Shown here: positions 29,019-40,079 of the stretch, one piece after another | How positions within the stretch are numbered: the stretch's first letter is position 1 | Layout: the number at the start of each line of letters is the position of its first letter | NCBI GenBank assembly: GCA_020628815.1 | Contig: JAHDEN010000011.1 | Span: forward strand, 14,281 to 60,197 | Direction: 5' to 3' | DNA: 45,917 nt | From: Chloroflexota bacterium | GTDB taxonomy: Bacteria; Chloroflexota; Anaerolineae; Promineifilales; Promineifilaceae | The notes under the pieces: generated by a model | Told to the model about the DNA's origin: nothing | Databases searched by the model: none | What the model saw: only the letters and a program-made list of their open reading frames with translations | Program-made: the position numbers and the translations under genes

Positions 29019-30206
29019 ATGAATTCGATCTTAACTAAAACAGTGAAAATCAAAAGCGAAACAGACCGTTTGATTTTGAAAACAATTTATGACGGAAACC
29101 CGTTGAGCCGAGCAGACATCGTCCGCCAAACGAGGCTAACCGCCCCAACTGTTTCTGCAACCGTATCAAGGCTAATTAAAGCCGGATTATTGAAAGAGTC
29201 TGACCCAGTTACCCAGGGTCGGGGTAAACCAGCTACTCAAATATGTCTCATTGATGAGGCTTTTTTGGTGATTGGCGTTGACATTAGCAATCGAGAGTTT
29301 CAAGGCTCTATTTTTGATATTCGTGGCCAATCTTTGCATATTGCAAAAATCATGGTTGATTACGATGATCCTGATTCAATATTTCCATCTTTGCTTCAAC
29401 TGATCGATGGACTGATTGCAAAAGTTGATGAGCTTGAAAGGCCTTTGTTGGGAATTGGAATCGGTACACCGGGTCTTCTGAATATTAACGATGGGTCAGT
29501 TCAAATCGCCATCAACTTAGGCTGGTTTGAATTTCCGTTGAAAGCGAAAATCGCATCCAAATATAATGTTCCGGTTTACGTTTTTAACGACAGCCAAGCT
29601 GCAGCACTGGGGCAATATACATTTGATAACAAGGATAAGCGCCAAAACATGGTTGTTATAAAAGTTGGTCGGGGTATTAGTGCAGGGATCATCTTGGACG
29701 GGGAGATTTATTCGGGTAGTCATTTTGGCGCCAGCGAAATTGGCCATTTGAAAATTGTTGAAGATAGTACGTTATGCCAATGTGGTCATTATGGATGCTT
29801 GGAAGCGGTAGCAAGTAGCACAGCCTTAGTTAAACAGACGAAAGCTCTGGGCATGATTTCTGAAAATCCGTTTAATTCAGAAGAGCAAATCACAACAGAA
29901 GATGTCATAACCGCGTTTCATGAGGGGCAAGAGGGAATTGTTGAAATAGTGGAAAATGCAGGTCGTTATATCGGCCGAGCAATTGCGAGCTTTGTTAGTA
30001 TCTTGAATATCCCTAATATTGTTATTGCGGGGAGCCTGTCGCGTCTAGGGCCGCAATTTCTTAATTCGATCCGTATTGAATTAGAGATGCGAGCCTTAGA
30101 GAATTTAGTTGTTAAAACCGACTTGAGCTTGTCTAGCCTCGGGCAAGAAATCGTAATGCAGGGAGCAGCTTCAATCATTCTGCATCAAGAGTTGGGGGTC
30201 ATATAA
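29019..30206 (+). CDS. ROK-family transcriptional repressor (NagC/XylR type)
   Basis: This 395-residue protein has an N-terminal winged helix (about 20-75, LSRADIVRQTRLTAPTVSATVSR-like HTH) fused to a ROK sugar-binding fold. The zinc motif CQCGHYGCLEAVAS (about 252-265) is intact. It probably represses this operon in the absence of an amino sugar or its phosphate. A perfect palindrome overlaps its own promoter. The kinase gene starts 1 bp after its stop. DNA here is AT-richer than the rhamnose and kynurenine regions and almost free of CGGCCG. Confidence 0.92.
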   Translation: MNSILTKTVKIKSETDRLILKTIYDGNPLSRADIVRQTRLTAPTVSATVSRLIKAGLLKESDPVTQGRGKPATQICLIDEAFLVIGVDISNREFQGSIFDIRGQSLHIAKIMVDYDDPDSIFPSLLQLIDGLIAKVDELERPLLGIGIGTPGLLNINDGSVQIAINLGWFEFPLKAKIASKYNVPVYVFNDSQAAALGQYTFDNKDKRQNMVVIKVGRGISAGIILDGEIYSGSHFGASEIGHLKIVEDSTLCQCGHYGCLEAVASSTALVKQTKALGMISENPFNSEEQITTEDVITAFHEGQEGIVEIVENAGRYIGRAIASFVSILNIPNIVIAGSLSRLGPQFLNSIRIELEMRALENLVVKTDLSLSSLGQEIVMQGAASIILHQELGVI

Positions 30207-30207
30207 C

Positions 30208-31119
30208 ATGTGCATCTGGATTGGATTTGACATTGGCGGCACAAAAATTGCGGCCCAAGCTGTGGACCATAACGGAAATGTGATTTGGTCGGATCAAAGG
30301 CCAACGGCCAAAGGGGACAAACTTGTACCAACCATTTGTGAGGTTGTTGAGCTCGCTCTCTTAAGCGTTCAAGAAACTGCGAATAACAGTTTGTCAGGGA
30401 TTGGGATTGCGATTCCAGGTCACGTTACGCCAGAAACTGGAGAAATTCACTTGGCTGTCAACCTAAATGTTGACGCTCCGCTACCCATTGGTCCGATGTT
30501 GAAAGATCGATTTGATGTCGCTGTCAAAATTGATAATGACGCGCGAGTAGCAGCTATCGGCGTTCAGCATCTGCTGGCTCTTGAAAATGTTGCATTTATC
30601 AATATTGGAACTGGAATGTCGGCCGGAATGATTCTTAACGGAGACCTTTATCGAGGCCGAAATGGACTCGCTGGTGAGATTGGCCACATTACCCTTGATC
30701 ATACTGATGGTAGAAATTTGATCTTAGAAAATATAGTTTCTGGTCCGGGGTTAGTAAGGGAAGCAGAGAGGGTAGGATATAAGGTCTCTAATCCTGCAGA
30801 GTTATTTGAAATAGCCAACACGGGTAGCCAAGTAGCCCAAAATGTCTTAAATACTTTTTTTTACTACCTATCAAGGGCCATCCAGTGGATTGCTCTTTCT
30901 ATGGATATTGACCAAATCGTTTTAGGCGGTGGGGTAACCCATGCTAGCGATTTGTTTGAAACTCAGCTGAGATCCAACATTGAGCAGCTACGGCAACGGT
31001 CTCAGGTCACTAATCTATTATTGACCAGTGAAAAAATAAGTTTGTTGCCAAAATCGTATAATGCTGGACTCTGGGGCGCAACCTATTTAATTAGGCAAAA
31101 CACCACATCTGAGTTATAG
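30208..31119 (+). CDS. ROK-family sugar kinase (probable GlcNAc or glucose kinase)
   Basis: This 303-residue kinase has the phosphate-1 loop GFDIGGTKIAAQ, the catalytic DNDARVAAIG (Asp near residue 110), and adenosine-site NIGTGMSAGMIL. GLAGEIGHITLD supplies the expected His. The CxCGxxGCxE zinc motif normal for ROK kinases is missing; the equivalent position reads DHTDGRNLILENIVSG. The operon context (NagA and NagB-II) suggests N-acetylglucosamine as substrate, but this is inference. It has no HTH, unlike the gene before it. Confidence 0.87.
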   Translation: MCIWIGFDIGGTKIAAQAVDHNGNVIWSDQRPTAKGDKLVPTICEVVELALLSVQETANNSLSGIGIAIPGHVTPETGEIHLAVNLNVDAPLPIGPMLKDRFDVAVKIDNDARVAAIGVQHLLALENVAFINIGTGMSAGMILNGDLYRGRNGLAGEIGHITLDHTDGRNLILENIVSGPGLVREAERVGYKVSNPAELFEIANTGSQVAQNVLNTFFYYLSRAIQWIALSMDIDQIVLGGGVTHASDLFETQLRSNIEQLRQRSQVTNLLLTSEKISLLPKSYNAGLWGATYLIRQNTTSEL

Positions 31120-31379: not shown

Positions 31380-34007
31380 ATGTTTCGCTTTAAAAATATA
31401 TTATTAAGCTTTTTAGGAACCCTACTTTTATTGTTTTTGGTGTCTTGTGGAGGAGATGCTTCTACTTCTGTGGATGAATTAGCTGATCAAACCGGTGATA
31501 CGGTCGTTGAAAGTGATGATTCAGCCGCAGATGAAGTTGAAATGGCAGATGAGAGTGAGCCTGAGGAATCGATAGAAGGTGTAACATTGACCATCGAAAG
31601 CTGGCGCAATGACGATTTGGCTATTTGGCAAGATCTTATCATCCCTGCATTTAACGAACAGCATCCTGAGATCGAAGTCATTTTTGCTCCTTCTGCCCCT
31701 ACTGAATACGATGGTGCTTTGAATACCAAGCTTGAAGGTGGTACGGCTGGTGATTTAATCACTTGTCGTCCATTTGATCGCTCATTGTCTCTGTTTGATG
31801 CTGGTCATTTAGCATCTCTAAATGATCTTGAAGGGATGGCAAACTTTGGGGGTGCTGCCCGCAGTGCTTGGATTACCGATGATGGTTCTGACGTGTTTTG
31901 TGTCCCTATGGCGTCGGTTATTCACGGGTTTATCTACAACGTAGATTTATTTGCCGAAGCTGGTGTCACTGCACCAGAAACTATAGATGACTTCTTTTCC
32001 GCTTTGGATTCTCTTCAAGCGGCTGGAATCACCCCGCTTGACATGGGGACAGCGGATCAATGGGAAGCGGCTACGATGGGATATCAAAATATCGGGCCAA
32101 ACTATTGGAAAGGTGAAGAGGGGCGTTTGGCCTTGTTAAGTGGCGAAGCACGATTGACTGATGCTGAGCATGTCGCCGTGTGGGAACAATTGGCCCGCTG
32201 GGGACAGTATTTGCCAAGCGGCTTTGAAGCCCAGACATACCCAGATTCACAAAATCTATTTACTTTGGGCCAGGCGGCCATATATCCTGCTGGTTCTTGG
32301 GATATTTCATTGTTCAACGAGCAAGCTGAATTTGAGATGGGTGCATTTAAGCCACCGGTTGTCAACGCAGGTGATACTTGTTACATCAGTGATCACACTG
32401 ATATTGCTATCGGGATGAATGCTAATACGCAAAATCCTGAAGCAGCCGAGACTTTCTTGAATTGGGTTGCATCGGCCGAGTTTGCCAATTTGTTTAGCAA
32501 CGCCCTGCCGGGCTTCTACTCTTTGGCGGATGTTGAATTAAATATTGATGACCCATTGGCGGCCGAGTTTGTCGGCTGGCGTAATGAGTGTGAATCGACA
32601 ATTCGTAACTCATACCAGATTTTGTCACGTGGTGAGCCAAACCTTGAAAATGAATTGTGGCGCGTAAGTTCTCAAGTCATCAACGGAGATATCACCCCGG
32701 AAGAAGCTGGTCAGCAGGCACAAGACGGTTTGGACCAATGGTATGGCCCGAGTATGGAAGCGGCCGAAATGGGTGAGGGGGCCATGGCAGAAGATGATGG
32801 CGACGGTGAAATGCTGATGGGGGGTGATATGGCTGGTGCGGTCACTATCGAAAGTTGGCGAAACGACGACCTTGCGATTTGGCAAGATCTTATTATTCCA
32901 GCGTTTAATGTCCATTTCCCAAACATCGAGGTGACTTTTGCGCCCTCTGCACCAACTGAATACGATGGGGCTCTCAACACTCGCCTCGAAGGCGGAACTG
33001 CCGGTGATCTAATCACTTGTCGTCCATTTGACCGCTCTTTAGCCTTGTATGATGCTGGGCATCTGGCAGCGCTCAATGACCTTGAAGGGATGGCTAATTT
33101 TGGTTCAGCTGCAACTAGTGCGTGGATTACCGATGATGGTTCAGACGTTTTCTGTGTTCCGATGGCATCTGTGATTCATGGCTTTATTTACAACGCAGAT
33201 TTGTTTGCTGAGGCTGGTGTTGAAGCACCAGAGACGGTGGATGAATTCTTTGCGACACTAGATGCCCTGCAATCGGCTGGGATCACTCCGCTTGATATGG
33301 GGACGGCCGACCAATGGGAAGCCGCCACGATGGGTTTCCAAAATGTTGGGCCAAACTACTGGAAGGGTGAAGAAGGGCGTCAAGCTCTTTTGAATGGCAC
33401 GGGTAAGCTGACGGATCAGGTGTATGTTGACACTTTGACCCAACTGTCTCGTTGGGGCGACTATATGCCCAGCGGTTTTCAAGCACAGACCTACCCAGAC
33501 TCACAGAACCTGTTCACTTTGGGTCAGGCAGCTATCTATCCGGCCGGTTCTTGGGACATCTCTCTCTTTAACAGTCAAGCTGAATTTGAGATGGGTGCAT
33601 TTAAACCTCCAGTTGTAAATGCTGGTGATGAATGTTATATCAGCGACCATACAGACATCGCTATCGGGTTAAATGCCAATGCGGCCGATCCTGAAGCATC
33701 GAAAGTCTTCTTGAACTGGGTTGCTTCGGCCGAATTTGCCAACCTGTTCAGTAACGCATTGCCAGGATTTTATTCATTAGCCAATGTCGATCTTGATATC
33801 GAAGACCCATTGGCGGCCGAATTTGTTAGCTGGCGAGGTGAATGTAACTCAACCATCCGGAATTCATATCAGATTTTGTCTCGCGGAGAGCCCAATCTTG
33901 AGAATGAATTGTGGAGAGTGAGCGCACAAGTCATCAATGGGGATATCACTCCAGAAGATGGTGCAGTACAGCTACAAAACGGGCTGGATGCTTGGTATAC
34001 CCCTTAG
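31380..34007 (+). CDS. Double-domain ABC sugar-binding lipoprotein (two tandem binding domains)
   Basis: The protein has 875 residues, about twice the usual 420-450. It has a lipoprotein signal ending LFLVSC (Cys23) and an acidic linker to about residue 68. Binding domain 1 spans about 71-457, an acidic Met/Gly linker follows, and binding domain 2 spans about 489-875. The domains align at a constant offset of 418 residues with no gaps and about 84 percent identity by eye. Each keeps the same four cysteines and segments such as APSAPTEYDGALNT and TCRPFDRS. Both look like intact family-1 solute-binding proteins. I chose the ATG at 31380; a TTG at 31353 would put residues before the signal peptide. 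It delivers a sugar, probably GlcNAc-type, to the permeases that follow. Confidence 0.93.
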   Translation: MFRFKNILLSFLGTLLLLFLVSCGGDASTSVDELADQTGDTVVESDDSAADEVEMADESEPEESIEGVTLTIESWRNDDLAIWQDLIIPAFNEQHPEIEVIFAPSAPTEYDGALNTKLEGGTAGDLITCRPFDRSLSLFDAGHLASLNDLEGMANFGGAARSAWITDDGSDVFCVPMASVIHGFIYNVDLFAEAGVTAPETIDDFFSALDSLQAAGITPLDMGTADQWEAATMGYQNIGPNYWKGEEGRLALLSGEARLTDAEHVAVWEQLARWGQYLPSGFEAQTYPDSQNLFTLGQAAIYPAGSWDISLFNEQAEFEMGAFKPPVVNAGDTCYISDHTDIAIGMNANTQNPEAAETFLNWVASAEFANLFSNALPGFYSLADVELNIDDPLAAEFVGWRNECESTIRNSYQILSRGEPNLENELWRVSSQVINGDITPEEAGQQAQDGLDQWYGPSMEAAEMGEGAMAEDDGDGEMLMGGDMAGAVTIESWRNDDLAIWQDLIIPAFNVHFPNIEVTFAPSAPTEYDGALNTRLEGGTAGDLITCRPFDRSLALYDAGHLAALNDLEGMANFGSAATSAWITDDGSDVFCVPMASVIHGFIYNADLFAEAGVEAPETVDEFFATLDALQSAGITPLDMGTADQWEAATMGFQNVGPNYWKGEEGRQALLNGTGKLTDQVYVDTLTQLSRWGDYMPSGFQAQTYPDSQNLFTLGQAAIYPAGSWDISLFNSQAEFEMGAFKPPVVNAGDECYISDHTDIAIGLNANAADPEASKVFLNWVASAEFANLFSNALPGFYSLANVDLDIEDPLAAEFVSWRGECNSTIRNSYQILSRGEPNLENELWRVSAQVINGDITPEDGAVQLQNGLDAWYTP
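31590..32750 (+). repeat. Internal tandem repeat, unit 1 of the binding-protein gene
   Basis: This segment codes for binding domain 1 and aligns with 32844-34004 at an offset of exactly 1254 bases. DNA similarity is clearly lower than protein similarity because many third positions differ. Confidence 0.9.
32844..34004 (+). repeat. Internal tandem repeat, unit 2 of the binding-protein gene
   Basis: This segment codes for binding domain 2, runs to the stop codon, and is the ungapped partner of 31590-32750. Confidence 0.9.
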
Positions 34008-34074: not shown

Positions 34075-34983
34075 ATGGTTCACAAACGTATACCAACTCA
34101 CATTATCGTTTTTTTATTACCTGCATTTGTCATTTACACTTTGTTTATGATCATCCCGCTAGCAGACAGCTTGCGGTTGAGTTTCTTTTCAAATGAAACT
34201 GGCGACTTTATTTTGTTCGAAAACTACAGGACATTGCTTACTGATGATCTGTGGTCTGTGCGCTTTTGGGGGGCTCTGAAAAATAATCTGATCTTTTTCG
34301 CCATAAACATGGCAGTTCAAAATCCAATTGGTCTTTTGTTGGCAGCCATGCTGAGCCGCAGAAATTTAAGAGGAAGCGGTCTCTATCGCACGCTTCTATT
34401 CATGCCCACAATGTTGTCTGTTGTCATAATCGGATTTATTTGGCAGCTTATTCTCAGCCCTCTTTGGGGGATTGCAGAATCTTTTATGGATGCGGTTTTC
34501 TTGGGGCAGTTTTTTCAACCGTGGCTAGGGCTCGAAGGGTCAGCCCTCAACGTTCTTGCACTGATTTCAGTCTGGCAGTTCATTGGGATACCGATGATGC
34601 TATTTTATGCTGCTCTTCTAGGAATTCCTGAGGAACTTATTGAGGCAGCCCATGTTGATGGGGCTACCCGCTGGCGGGTTTTTTGGTCAATTAAATTTCC
34701 CTTGATATTACCAACGGTCGGTATTGTCAGTATCTTGACCTTTGTTGGTAACTTTAATGCCTTTGACTTAATTTACACTGTAAAAGGAGCCTTGGCAGGG
34801 CCCAACTTCTCAACTGATATTATGGGAACCTTATTTTTCCGCACCTTTTTTGGTCAGCAGCTACAGCTTGGAAACCCTGAAATGGGGGCAACTGTTGCAG
34901 CCATGATGCTGATTATTATATTGGCCGGTGTCATTCTCTACTTGGTTGGATGGCAGCGTCAAATTACAACTTACGAGATTTAA
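34075..34983 (+). CDS. ABC sugar transporter permease (MalF/UgpA type)
   Basis: This 302-residue inner-membrane protein has six hydrophobic segments, beginning HIIVFLLPAFVIYTLFMIIPL. The EAA loop reads EELIEAAHVDGATRWRVFWSIKFPLILP (about residues 195-222 in two parts), which contacts the ATPase. The frame is open further upstream into the binding-protein gene, but the membrane protein starts at this ATG. No ATPase gene is in the operon, so a shared MsmX-like ATPase elsewhere is expected. Confidence 0.92.
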   Translation: MVHKRIPTHIIVFLLPAFVIYTLFMIIPLADSLRLSFFSNETGDFILFENYRTLLTDDLWSVRFWGALKNNLIFFAINMAVQNPIGLLLAAMLSRRNLRGSGLYRTLLFMPTMLSVVIIGFIWQLILSPLWGIAESFMDAVFLGQFFQPWLGLEGSALNVLALISVWQFIGIPMMLFYAALLGIPEELIEAAHVDGATRWRVFWSIKFPLILPTVGIVSILTFVGNFNAFDLIYTVKGALAGPNFSTDIMGTLFFRTFFGQQLQLGNPEMGATVAAMMLIIILAGVILYLVGWQRQITTYEI

Positions 34984-35002: not shown

Positions 35003-35842
35003 ATGTTGACAAGAACAAAACAACAGCTTAAAGATCATTGGGCCGCTCATATCGTTCTTTTGGTGTATGGGGCCATTGCCCTTTTTCCAATCATCTTGGT
35101 CGTTCTTAACTCATTTAAAGGTCGGAAAGCGATTTTCAACTCCCCTTTATCGATTCCTAATCGAGAAACTTTTAGTTTGATTGGGTATACCACAGTTTGG
35201 GAGCGGGCTAATTTTGATCTTTATTTTGGTAACAGTCTTTTGATAACCATCGTTTCTATCGCTCTGATTTTGCTTACTGGGGCGATGGCGGCTTTTGCTC
35301 TTTCTGAATATGATTTTCGCGGAAACACCTTTTTGGGGCTGTATATGGCATTGGGGATTATGATCCCTATCAGACTAGGTACGGTGGGAATATTGCGCTT
35401 AGTTGTGGCCCTAGGATTAACAAATACCCTGACTGCGTTGATTTTAGTCTATACAGCTCAGGGGTTACCTTTGGCGATTTTTGTTTTGCAGAATTTTATG
35501 AGCCAAATTCCCCGAGAACTTAAAGAGGCTGCCCGGGTAGATGGTGCGAGTGAATATCGAATATTCGCTTTGATTTTGCCTATTGTTCGGCCGGCCGTAG
35601 CTACAGTAGCTGTTTTTGTCATGATTCCTATTTGGAATGATTTATGGTTTCCGCTGATTTTGGCTCCCGGAGAACAAACTAAGACTGTGACGCTGGGTGC
35701 ACAGCAGTTTTTGGGGCAGTTTGTAAGCGACTGGAACGCCGTATTGTCATCCTTGACCTTGGCAATGATTCCAGTTCTGATCTTGTACCTAATTTTTTCT
35801 AGACAGCTGATTAGAGGGATAACGGCTGGGGCGGTGAAATAG
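35003..35842 (+). CDS. ABC sugar transporter permease (MalG/UgpE type)
   Basis: This 279-residue partner permease has six hydrophobic segments, starting after a short cytosolic stretch with IVLLVYGAIALFPIILVVLNSFK. The EAA loop is PRELKEAARVDGASEYRIF. The ATG at 35003 is preferred to an earlier in-frame start inside the previous gene. It pairs with the MalF-type protein to form the channel. A Gfo/Idh/MocA gene starts 1 bp after its stop. Confidence 0.92.
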   Translation: MLTRTKQQLKDHWAAHIVLLVYGAIALFPIILVVLNSFKGRKAIFNSPLSIPNRETFSLIGYTTVWERANFDLYFGNSLLITIVSIALILLTGAMAAFALSEYDFRGNTFLGLYMALGIMIPIRLGTVGILRLVVALGLTNTLTALILVYTAQGLPLAIFVLQNFMSQIPRELKEAARVDGASEYRIFALILPIVRPAVATVAVFVMIPIWNDLWFPLILAPGEQTKTVTLGAQQFLGQFVSDWNAVLSSLTLAMIPVLILYLIFSRQLIRGITAGAVK

Positions 35843-35843
35843 A

Positions 35844-36860
35844 ATGAGTAAACAGTTACGTATTGGTATCATTGGGTCTGGAGCGATGGGGCAAACTCAT
35901 GTGAAGGCTTGGCAAAACACCTCAGCAAAAATTTGTGGGATTGTCTCTAAATCGGAGGAGACGGCCGTTCCCCTAGCTAAAAGCTGTGGGGCAAAGGTGT
36001 TCGACTCCCTTGACCAGCTATTGCCTGTGATTGATGTGGTTGATATTTGTGTGCCAACCCATCTGCATTGTGAGATAACATTAATTGCTGCTGCGGCCGG
36101 TGTACATGTTGTTTGTGAAAAGCCACTAGCACGAAATGTTTCCCAAGCCGTTGAAATGATACAGGCGTGCGAGTCAGCCGGGGTCAAACTTCTTGCAGCC
36201 CACGTGGTACGATTCTTTCCAGAATATGCACAAGCAAAAGCCAAAGTTGTGGCCGGTGAGATTGGTTTACCCGCGATTATCAGGCTCAAGCGCGGCGCCT
36301 CCCAACCGGAAAAATCAAGCGACAACTGGTTTGTAGATTTGGAAAAATCAGGTGGCGTAATCTTAGACTTAATGATTCATGATTTTGACTTTGCCCGCTG
36401 GATTGCAGGAGAGGTTAAAACTGTCTATGCAAAAAATATTGGAACAGAGCATCCCGGTACGAGCGTGGACCACGCTTTAGCGATCCTAACACACGAAAAC
36501 GGTGTTCTTTCTCACATTGAAGGCTCTTGGGCGTACCCTGCTCCGCTTTTTAGAACCCAATTGGAAATTGCGGGTAGCAATGGATTGATTCAGCATAACT
36601 CAGATAAAACAGCTTCGATAGGTAGCTTTTTTTATCAAAGGGAGCAGGCTGATGTTGATGTTCCGTTGCCGGCGAGCCCGATGCATGAGGACCCGTATGC
36701 AACACAGATTAAAGCTTTTTATGCGCATCTGACTGAGGATGCGCCCATCCCAATTTCCGCTAGAGATGGATTGGCAGCTTTAAAAATCGCATTAGCAGCT
36801 TTGAAATCAGCCCAGACAGGAGCGCCTGTAGATATTCAAGAAATGGAGGTAGTCTCGTGA
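35844..36860 (+). CDS. Gfo/Idh/MocA-family oxidoreductase (first of two)
   Basis: This is a 338-residue protein. The NAD(P)-binding Rossmann loop is RIGIIGSGAMGQTH. The family mark CEKPLARN follows VHVVCEKPL (about residue 95), and the C-terminal alpha/beta domain contains GGVILDLMIHDFDFARW. Members oxidise sugars or amino sugars, or act as NAD-dependent glycosidases such as GH109. Its place in an amino-sugar operon makes either plausible. It overlaps the next gene by 4 bp. Confidence 0.9.
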   Translation: MSKQLRIGIIGSGAMGQTHVKAWQNTSAKICGIVSKSEETAVPLAKSCGAKVFDSLDQLLPVIDVVDICVPTHLHCEITLIAAAAGVHVVCEKPLARNVSQAVEMIQACESAGVKLLAAHVVRFFPEYAQAKAKVVAGEIGLPAIIRLKRGASQPEKSSDNWFVDLEKSGGVILDLMIHDFDFARWIAGEVKTVYAKNIGTEHPGTSVDHALAILTHENGVLSHIEGSWAYPAPLFRTQLEIAGSNGLIQHNSDKTASIGSFFYQREQADVDVPLPASPMHEDPYATQIKAFYAHLTEDAPIPISARDGLAALKIALAALKSAQTGAPVDIQEMEVVS

Positions 36861-37888
36861 AAATTGGAATTATGAGTTTTGCACATTTGCATGCTGAAGC
36901 GTACATTGGCAATCTGCGCGCCATTCCAGGTGTTGAGATGATTGGAATTGCTGATGAGCAACTGAAAAGAGGTAAGCAATTTTCTAAACAATTTGACGCT
37001 CGTCTTTACTCCAGTTATGAAGAATTGCTATTAGAGGCTGATGCTGTTTTAGTTTGCTCCGAAAACAGCCGACACCGGCCGCTGGTGGAAATGGCCGCAG
37101 CTGCGGGGGTGCATGTGCTATGTGAGAAACCCTTGGCAACTACGGCTGAAGACGCAGAGGCGATGCTAGCCGCTTGTAAAGCGGCCGGTGTTGTTTTGAT
37201 GACCGCATTTCCGATGCGATTTAGTGCACCGCTACAGCAATTAAAATCGGAGCTAGATTCAGGATCGTTTGGCAAACCTTACTGTGTTAGCTCAGTTAAT
37301 CAGGGGCGTATCCCGGTCGATTATCGTTCATGGTTTGTTGATCCCGAGCTCGCTGGTGGTGGCGCATTGATTGATCACGTCGTGCATTTAGCGGATGTGA
37401 TGCGTTGGTATTTTGAGTGTGAAGTCACTTCGGTATATGCCCAAGCAAACAACCTAATGTACCCAGATGGTGTGGCAAATGATTCAAGAGGAATTGAAAT
37501 TGTTTACGCGGATGAAGTTGCAGTTGAAACGGTTGGGCTAGTGATGCTTACCTTTGAAAATGGGGTGTTTGCTACCATTGACTGTAGTTGGAGCAAGCCC
37601 TTAAACTACCACACTTGGGGAGGCTTGTCGTTTGAAATGATTACAGAGAAAGGGTTAATTACAGCCGATGCCTTTAGTCAGAATCTGAGTGTTCACACTG
37701 AAAAACCGATGGGGCACAATTTGGCGTTTTGGGGATCTGATGCAAATCAGGCGATGATCGAAGAATTTGTTGATTCTATTAGAATGAATCGGGAACCAGC
37801 CGTTACTGCGCTTGATGGCAAGATCGGTTTGGACATTACGTTGGCGGCCTATGAGTCGGTACGAACCGGCATGCCCGTACAACTTTAA
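36857..37888 (+). CDS. Gfo/Idh/MocA-family oxidoreductase (second of two)
   Basis: This 343-residue protein starts with GTG, overlapping the previous stop (GTGA), with GGAGG 9 bp upstream. The Rossmann start KIGIMSFAHLHAEAY lacks the usual GxGxxG, having SFAHLH instead; HVLCEKPLATT is present. The later segment GGGALIDHVVHLADVMRW carries the catalytic-region His. It is clearly diverged from the first copy and probably has a different substrate. Both lie between transporter and NagA genes, so they likely process the imported sugar. Confidence 0.88.
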   Translation: MKIGIMSFAHLHAEAYIGNLRAIPGVEMIGIADEQLKRGKQFSKQFDARLYSSYEELLLEADAVLVCSENSRHRPLVEMAAAAGVHVLCEKPLATTAEDAEAMLAACKAAGVVLMTAFPMRFSAPLQQLKSELDSGSFGKPYCVSSVNQGRIPVDYRSWFVDPELAGGGALIDHVVHLADVMRWYFECEVTSVYAQANNLMYPDGVANDSRGIEIVYADEVAVETVGLVMLTFENGVFATIDCSWSKPLNYHTWGGLSFEMITEKGLITADAFSQNLSVHTEKPMGHNLAFWGSDANQAMIEEFVDSIRMNREPAVTALDGKIGLDITLAAYESVRTGMPVQL

Positions 37889-39046
37889 ATGATCTCAATT
37901 TTAATCCAGAACGCTCAACTCATCCTGCCGGACCAAGTTTCGCTGGGGGCATGTTTGGTCAAAGATGGCCAGATTGCTACCATCTTTGCGGAGCCCTTTC
38001 CCGCATTGGTGCATGCCGACAGGGTTATCGATGCGGCCGGGAGTTTTCTTGCCCCCGGCTTGATCGATTTGCAACTCAACGGGGCGTTTGGGGATGATTT
38101 CACCCAATCCCCAGAAACGATTTGGCCGGTAGCGGCCCGTTTGCCCGAGCTGGGGCTAACCGGTTTTTTACCCACAATCATTACGTCACCGCTGGCCCAA
38201 TCACGATTGGCCCGTGATGTGCTAAAAAAACGGCCGAAGAATTTTAACGGCACCGTTCCATTGGGATTACATCTTGAAGGCCCTTTCTTGAATCGAGAAA
38301 AGAAAGGGGCGCATAACCCCGATCATATTTTGTCGGCGCAGCAGGCTCCGGCCGCTGAAATGGCTGAATGGACGGCTGAAAACGGGGTTCGTTTGGTGAC
38401 CCTTGCCCCAGAAACCGATGGGGCAATTCGGTTGATTCGCCAGTTATCAGACCAAGGCGTGGTTGTGAGTGCGGGCCATTCGATGGCAACGTTTGCGCAG
38501 GCACAAGCCGGGTTTGCGGCCGGAATTACCGCTGTCACCCATCTGTTTAATGCCATGCCGCCGCTGCACCATCGTGAACCGGGGCTGGCCGCGGCCGCTT
38601 TGGCAGATGGGTCGATCACGCTCGGGCTGATTCCCGATGGGGTTCACGTTCATCCTGAGCTGGTTCAGCTGGTATGGCGACTCGCATCCGGCCGGATCAA
38701 CGGTGTGACCGACGCGATGGCTGCGATGGGATCTGATCCTGGCGAGTACAAATTGGGGGACTACACCGTGACGGTGTCAGAGACTGACGCACGATTGCCG
38801 TCAGGCACCTTGGCTGGCAGCATTGTGCGGCCGATGCAGGTGATCCAAAACTTGGTGGCTTACACATTTTGTTCAGTGGCTGATGCGGTCCGCTCTATGA
38901 CCGCTGTCCCGGCCGATTTGCTGGGAATTGGCGCACAAAAAGGGTATCTTGTAACCGGGCAAGACGCTGACCTGATTTTATTTGATAGGGCATTTAATTT
39001 AGAAAAAACAATTATTCAAGGGAGCATCGTTTATGATCGAAACTAG
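37889..39046 (+). CDS. nagA: N-acetylglucosamine-6-phosphate deacetylase
   Basis: This 385-residue amidohydrolase-fold enzyme removes acetate from GlcNAc-6-phosphate. Motifs are GLIDLQLNGAFGDDF (about 53-67), HLEGPFLNREKKGAHNP with the metal Glu, and the His pair in SAGHSMATFAQA and VTHLFNAMPPLHHREPG. The catalytic Asp lies in VTDAMAAMGS. Its end overlaps the next gene by 14 bp. It is the best pointer to an amino-sugar role for the operon. Confidence 0.96.
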   Translation: MISILIQNAQLILPDQVSLGACLVKDGQIATIFAEPFPALVHADRVIDAAGSFLAPGLIDLQLNGAFGDDFTQSPETIWPVAARLPELGLTGFLPTIITSPLAQSRLARDVLKKRPKNFNGTVPLGLHLEGPFLNREKKGAHNPDHILSAQQAPAAEMAEWTAENGVRLVTLAPETDGAIRLIRQLSDQGVVVSAGHSMATFAQAQAGFAAGITAVTHLFNAMPPLHHREPGLAAAALADGSITLGLIPDGVHVHPELVQLVWRLASGRINGVTDAMAAMGSDPGEYKLGDYTVTVSETDARLPSGTLAGSIVRPMQVIQNLVAYTFCSVADAVRSMTAVPADLLGIGAQKGYLVTGQDADLILFDRAFNLEKTIIQGSIVYDRN

Positions 39047-40079
39047 TTATTTATACACAGAAATTTTTGAACAACCGGCTGTGCTCGCCGACCTGCTTAG
39101 CAACGAGTGGGCGGCCGTTTCAAATCTGGCACAAGCCATCCAAGCAAAAAATATAAAGCACATTGTGATTGCGGCCCGTGGCACCAGCGACAACGCTGGC
39201 CGGTATGCTCAGTATCTGCTTGGGGCTAAAAACGGCATGGTTGTCACCTTGTCAGCTCCCAGCTTATTTTCAATTTATGATGCGCCTCCCAGCTTTGACA
39301 ACTGCTTGGTTTTAGGGATTAGTCAGAGCGGGCAAAGTCCTGACATTGTGGGGGTACTTGAAGAAGCGCAAAAGCAGGGGCAGCTCACAGCCGCTATTAC
39401 CAATAGCACCAGCTCGCCGCTGGCACAGGCGGCCGATTTTGTGATCGATATTCATGCAGGGCCGGAAAAAGCGGTTGCGGCTACAAAATCATATACCAAC
39501 TCGCTGGTGTCTATCGCCATGCTTAGCGAAGCTTTGGCGGGATTAGATGAGCCATCGGCCGAGTTGATGCGCTTGCCGGATGCGGTTTCAAAGACGCTTG
39601 AGCTATCTTCTCCCATTTCTGAGATAGCGCATCGGTATCGATTTATGAAGCACTGTGTGGTTATCGGCCGAGGCTTTAACTACGCCACGGCGTTTGAGAT
39701 GGCGCTGAAAATGAAAGAGTTAACCTACACGATTGTTGAGCCATACAGTTCGGCCGACTTTTTGCACGGCCCGTTTGCGGTTGTTGAACAGGGGTTTCCG
39801 ATGATCTTGTTGGCCCCCAATGGCAAAATGAACCAAAGCATGTTGGAGCTGGCCCAGCGGCTGAAGGAAAATCAGGCGGACACCCTGATTTTAAGCGATG
39901 TGGCTGAGCTGCTTGAGCTGGCCACGATACCGGTTCAATTGCCGGCCGAATTGCCCGAATGGCTGTCTCCCATCACCACAATTTTGGCTGGGCAAATGTT
40001 GGGCATGTATTTGGCCCACATCAAGGGGTTTGATGTAGATGAGCCGCGCGGGTTGAACAAGGTTACAAAAACGGAGTAG
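39033..40079 (+). CDS. SIS-domain glucosamine-6-phosphate deaminase (NagB-II type) or GlmS-like isomerase
   Basis: This 348-residue protein has two SIS sugar-phosphate isomerase domains and no glutaminase domain, so it is not full GlmS. Marks are ARGTSDNAGRYAQYLL, LGISQSGQSPDIVGV, the EKAVAATKSYTNSL segment, and the C-terminal DEPRGLNKVTKTE. The last of these matches the E-x-RGL-x-KVTKTE tail of GlmS and NagB-II. Paired with NagA by a 14-bp overlap, it should convert glucosamine-6-phosphate to fructose-6-phosphate and ammonia. Confidence 0.9.
   Translation: MIETSYLYTEIFEQPAVLADLLSNEWAAVSNLAQAIQAKNIKHIVIAARGTSDNAGRYAQYLLGAKNGMVVTLSAPSLFSIYDAPPSFDNCLVLGISQSGQSPDIVGVLEEAQKQGQLTAAITNSTSSPLAQAADFVIDIHAGPEKAVAATKSYTNSLVSIAMLSEALAGLDEPSAELMRLPDAVSKTLELSSPISEIAHRYRFMKHCVVIGRGFNYATAFEMALKMKELTYTIVEPYSSADFLHGPFAVVEQGFPMILLAPNGKMNQSMLELAQRLKENQADTLILSDVAELLELATIPVQLPAELPEWLSPITTILAGQMLGMYLAHIKGFDVDEPRGLNKVTKTE

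Follow-up and report, generated by a model that had tools for sequence, protein, structure and literature searches.

Receptors of CUT1-type importers (solute-binding proteins, SBPs, of the SBP_bac_1 family) usually, though not by strict definition, carry one binding domain per chain, and work on importers with multiple receptor domains has centered mainly on GlnPQ and similar systems in which the domains are fused to the permease. In GlnPQ-type importers, two complete substrate-binding domains of the amino-acid type stand in tandem on one polypeptide with a flexible linker, bind independently, have different specificities, and are fused to the transmembrane subunit (PMC8025302). Here we describe a Chloroflexota protein, encoded within a 45,917-nt stretch of genomic DNA that we call the window, which shares this tandem arrangement and flexible linker but is a free lipoprotein whose near-identical units are of the SBP_bac_1 sugar type. 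Its nearest solved relatives in fold and sequence, NagB1/NagB2 of Paenibacillus FPU-7 (7eho), have the same aromatic ligand platform of Trp/Tyr/Trp residues and a pocket that holds up to three sugars (PMC8233162); however, they are single-domain proteins of about 20% identity, and most of their polar ligand contacts appear not to be conserved in the window protein. Alphaproteobacterial orthologues (e.g., Sinorhizobium meliloti LZK74_17070) are 62–68% identical and lie in the same type of operon (nagA, SIS, kinase, two permeases), but contain one domain, as opposed to two or three in Chloroflexota. Permease-fused GlnPQ is the nearest known case to a free tandem SBP. We found no description of free tandem SBPs in the open-access papers searched, and the habit of placing several nutrient-catching domains on one lipid anchor in this Chloroflexota branch is apparently undescribed.

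Results

A tandem receptor in a probable amino-sugar operon

The tandem SBP gene (Table 1) is read without internal stops from the ATG at 31380 to the stop at 34005–34007, and a purine-rich, ribosome-site-like stretch lies upstream. Pfam SBP_bac_1 matches the protein in two stretches (200.5 bits, gathering cut-off 26; whole-protein E = 8.4e-59), and in place of the usual single binding domain the chain holds two complete units. Almost all intact tandem relatives have the lipobox, and relatives carry an equivalent low-complexity tether. The gene adjoins two BPD_transp_1 permeases, as CUT1 SBP genes do, with the permease starting as a separate, unfused ORF after the SBP stop. The window has 27 frames that run 300 aa or more from stop to stop, and an internal repeat occurs only in that of the tandem SBP.

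Table 1 Positions of the tandem SBP gene, its parts and neighboring genes in the window.
Feature	Position	Strand	Basis or remark
ROK-family regulator with winged helix, NagC-like	29019..30206	+	Pfam
ROK sugar kinase	30208..31119	+	Pfam
Tandem SBP lipoprotein gene, 875 aa	31380..34007	+	One continuous ORF; two PF01547 stretches
Signal peptide, lipobox LVSC, predicted lipidated Cys at residue 23	31380..31448	+	Sequence read
N-terminal tether, acidic, Ser/Glu/Asp-rich	31449..31586	+	Sequence read
Binding unit N, 388 aa	31587..32750	+	Gapless alignment to unit C, 83.8% aa identity
Inter-unit linker, 30 aa, without second signal peptide or lipobox	32751..32840	+	Sequence read
Binding unit C, 388 aa, nearest solved fold NagB2 7eho	32841..34004	+	Alignment to unit N; model pLDDT 94.4
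Permease 1 (BPD_transp_1)	34075..34983	+	Pfam; operon comparison
Permease 2 (BPD_transp_1)	35003..35842	+	Pfam; operon comparison
Gfo/Idh/MocA oxidoreductase A	35844..36860	+	Pfam; operon comparison
Gfo/Idh/MocA oxidoreductase B	36857..37888	+	Pfam; operon comparison
Amidohydrolase, NagA-like (GlcNAc-6-P deacetylase)	37889..39046	+	Pfam; operon comparison
SIS-domain sugar isomerase/deaminase-like	39033..40079	+	Pfam; operon comparison

The operon is kept in Chloroflexota and partly in Alphaproteobacteria; it accompanies single or double SBPs alike, and permease 1 is also found near a triple SBP. In S. meliloti Ak57, the single-domain orthologue (64% identity) stands beside nagA, SIS, a GlcNAc kinase, murQ, two permeases and an ATPase. 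Literature searches turned up no decisive publication on this S. meliloti gene cluster. Judging from the S. meliloti neighborhood and the operon content, the window SBP is likely the receptor of an amino-sugar importer. We saw no ATPase gene in the window operon, and the window genome has 2 OB_MalK ATPase matches against 19 SBP_bac_1 matches, so an ATPase is likely shared between importers. At a related locus with a triple SBP, a 991-aa secreted protein that appears GH9-like by eye, a putative glycoside hydrolase, is encoded between the triple and its permease (L087:8681-11656).

Age and constraint of the two units

The gene contains two direct-repeat families, both at an exact spacing of 1254 nt, and units N and C align without a gap over 388 residues (83.8% amino acid and 75.1% nucleotide identity), just as an earlier note on this DNA had claimed in describing an in-frame duplication at this offset with about 84% protein identity. 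Between the units, pS is 0.742, at which the Jukes-Cantor correction diverges, and dN is 0.116. Saturated synonymous sites together with low dN indicate two old units, each under purifying selection, and these values fit neither an assembly echo nor neutral decay, which upholds the earlier view that both copies have been kept by selection. The dN/dS comparison proposed along with it gave low values for the N and C units of three related genomes (0.069 in G004, 0.117 in G013 and 0.073 in G032); rather than a ratio near 1 with a broken binding site in one domain, we found both units constrained. The window protein is, on this sequence evidence, a real and selected tandem duplication on one predicted lipid anchor.

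The predicted ligand site is the same in both units

The best PDB match to the unit C model is the chitooligosaccharide SBP NagB2 (TM 0.83, 21% identity); a full-length AlphaFold model, computed with five double sequences, reached a pLDDT of 42, too low to use for domain arrangement. The counterparts of the NagB platform (W159, Y218 and W238) are present in both units and invariant across 46 homologues, and all other mappable NagB2 contact positions are likewise identical in N and C. Beyond this platform, most NagB2 contact residues differ in the window SBP: among the polar GlcNAc contacts Q222 and S241 are kept and the others differ, with several contacts falling beyond the aligned part. With no difference between the units at the predicted ligand-site residues, two specificities, one of the functions suggested earlier, are unsupported for the window protein. 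That suggestion had drawn on a clustering of differences at unit residues 180–215, and the count itself is right (16 of 63 differences, a 3.3-fold enrichment). As a sign of specificity it fails; the enrichment is also 3.3-fold between the orthologous C-units of the window and G004, and the segment is modeled as two helices holding none of the mapped contacts. On these grounds we rejected a specificity split based on this cluster and regard 180–215 as a fast-evolving segment.

Copy number varies within Chloroflexota

We compared 79 orthologous loci in genome contigs, the window's own record not among them, and counted their units by HMM. Every proteobacterial locus has one unit. Two-unit orthologues occur at six Chloroflexota loci (L074, L075, L076, L077, L078 and L079), of which L076 is frame-shifted in unit 2 and L079 is cut by the contig start; three-unit orthologues occur in Anaerolineales HSG24 (L086, 1284-aa frame) and HSG25 (L087, 1313-aa frame), and at two loci (L073 and L080) one unit is fused to a different SBP. 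The remaining loci, several from Anaerolineales among them, have a single unit. Variation between one, two and three copies is thus confined to Chloroflexota among these loci, and the search for single- and double-domain homologues that had been suggested yields single forms in Proteobacteria and single, double, triple or mixed-fusion forms in Chloroflexota. In an orthologous double at L058:4231-6821 (genome G031), a frameshift close to where unit 2 begins breaks the reading frame, either a sequencing error or real.

In a tree of the units, L077, L078 and L079 each have their own two units as a pair, the four window and G004 units form one clade, and the HSG24 and HSG25 units sort by position. 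Placing all N-units in a single clade is rejected (p-AU = 3.8e-38), which rules out that all doubles stem from one ancestral duplication with no homogenization since. Between the window and G004, 11 sites group the units by position and 12 by protein, with 0 crossed, indicating a duplication older than their split followed by homogenization or parallel change; in distant pairs, position-sorted sites are not clearly above crossed sites. Since units group within lineages, several independent or homogenized duplications are implied, and the sequences fit both at least four independent duplications and strong concerted evolution. Unequal crossing-over probably produced the tandems, duplicating units in frame on repeated occasions, with partial homogenization afterwards.

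Tandem receptors recur across unrelated folds

We located internal repeats by windowed comparison, as protein self-BLAST hides off-diagonal repeats, and quote tandem lengths as open frames between stops; the census is a sample of genomes, not an enrichment test. Besides the window double, the window genome encodes a second PF01547 double (C301, 884 aa; 28–30% identical to the window double), a PF01547 triple (C251, 1303-aa frame) and one Peripla_BP_4 double. G004 has six clear tandem ORFs, including the orthologue and one triple; G013 has two, G015 three, and G027 and G010 one each, while G007 has none. HSG24 and HSG25 contain several triples, and a 1502-aa HSG24 frame running from the contig edge (L168:3-4508) shows repeat offsets of ~430 aa, which imply that it has four or more SBP units. 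At least two doubles were among the matches listed for Anaerolineales BS750m-G45. Other folds are represented by Peripla_BP_4 triples in G013 (875 aa), G004 (1094 aa) and G070 (1107 aa), Peripla_BP_4 doubles in G000 (672 aa) and G027 (748 aa), and a Peripla_BP_6 triple in G004 (1191 aa). Identity between the units of a tandem ranges from 98–100% down to about 30%. G027, a genome of three contigs, has its tandems inside the 3.99-Mb and the 1.0-Mb one, so draft assembly does not account for the pattern.

By comparison, none of the 84 PF01547 matches in Mesorhizobium, Ruegeria, Marinomonas and Thermanaerothrix genomes has two complete domains per frame, and no tandem was among the matches listed for Spirochaetales, SAR324, Granulosicoccaceae, Terrabacteria ANGP1 and Leptolinea. 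The 54 Gfo/Idh enzyme matches in five tandem-bearing genomes include no doubles, which argues for selection on receptors rather than for a general duplication bias. Poly-SBP lipoproteins are, as far as sequence comparison can tell, a recurrent architecture in this Chloroflexota lineage. A lipid-anchored double without a fused permease, called unusual in the earlier note, is so relative to Proteobacteria but not within this lineage.

Unlike receptors are also joined. The lipoprotein at L080:2701-5403 consists of a window-type unit and a second SBP and lies between two different permease pairs, each matching one of the two SBP types; the upstream permeases are 66–67% like those of L073 and 52–61% like those beside a homotypic G027 tandem, and the downstream permeases are 71–77% like the window permeases. 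From this gene order, one L080 anchor may serve two importers. Pfam hmmscan finds no match in the G027 tandem, yet a profile search with the same model scored both units, which are 63–64% like the second half of L080, where Pfam sees two SBP_bac_1 stretches. Other mixed fusions combine BP_6 with BP_4 (L178), two BP_4 with SBP_bac_1 (L167), and one or two Peripla_BP_6 with SBP_bac_5 in single chains of 957–1337 aa (L180:903-3773 and L180:4266-8276 in HSG25, L181:881-3802 in HSG24). A 1207-aa protein of G006 (L063:283-3903) joins Peripla_BP_6, a pentameric channel-like Neur_chan_memb stretch and a C-terminal SBP_bac_1 domain that is 36% like the window SBP.

Discussion

We propose, with a probability of about 0.6, that the poly-SBP lipoprotein gives one importer more identical binding domains on each lipid anchor, which retains the earlier suggestion of raised local capture as the best functional reading. 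In this view, an ABC importer of the CUT1 type would use the window lipoprotein as its receptor, with GlcNAc, chitobiose or a sugar derived from peptidoglycan as the imported amino sugar. On flexible tethers, the two domains of the lipoprotein would bind the same sugar independently, as expected by analogy with GlnPQ (PMC8025302), and dock in turn on the same permease pair. If both domains bind the same sugar and take turns on the same permeases, the duplication would act as an antenna, offering more loaded receptors per anchor and per transporter.

Simple gene dosage, or a stabilizing role, would likewise be compatible with identical predicted sites in N and C. Tandem duplications might be frequent, tolerated by-products of mutation that bring no transport advantage, in keeping with the many duplication events of all ages seen here; still, we think this unlikely, as old units are kept with very low dN, neither Gfo/Idh enzymes nor the other 26 long window frames are doubled, and the doubling recurs over unrelated SBP folds. 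We consider it distinctly improbable that the units have diverged to different sugars and give one importer two specificities: the 63 differences and their cluster might hint at this, but every mapped contact position is the same, the cluster is just as strong between orthologous C-units, and its helices hold no mapped contact. Even so, two related genomes have fusions with a second, different SBP, so other proteins of the lineage may well have dual specificity.

The earlier note had also suggested that the two pockets hold one long oligosaccharide or polymer. The 30-aa linker makes simultaneous binding sterically possible, but this reading is unsupported and strikes us as very improbable, given that the NagB2-type pocket takes up to three sugars (PMC8233162), that permeases are of the same type beside single-domain and multiple-domain orthologues, and that the same tandems exist in the unrelated folds Peripla_BP_4 and Peripla_BP_6. 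These two folds are usually receptors for small solutes. An assembly artefact might be suspected from units that are 98–100% identical in draft assemblies of some relatives (L018, L169), but its likelihood is negligible for window units that differ by 25% of nucleotides, with tandem orthologues in independent assemblies and tandems within the megabase contigs of G027.

Beyond the increase in receptors per anchor that we favor for the window protein, we give even odds to the broader proposal that this Chloroflexota lineage uses poly-SBP lipoproteins as a general uptake strategy, with two to at least four domains of unrelated folds per anchor, including mixed arrays serving two importers. Where a mixed array lies between two permease pairs, a single anchored receptor would be common to two importers. 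One orthologous receptor exists in nature with one, two or three domains beside the same permease type, a series in which the effect of receptor number on uptake is directly testable.
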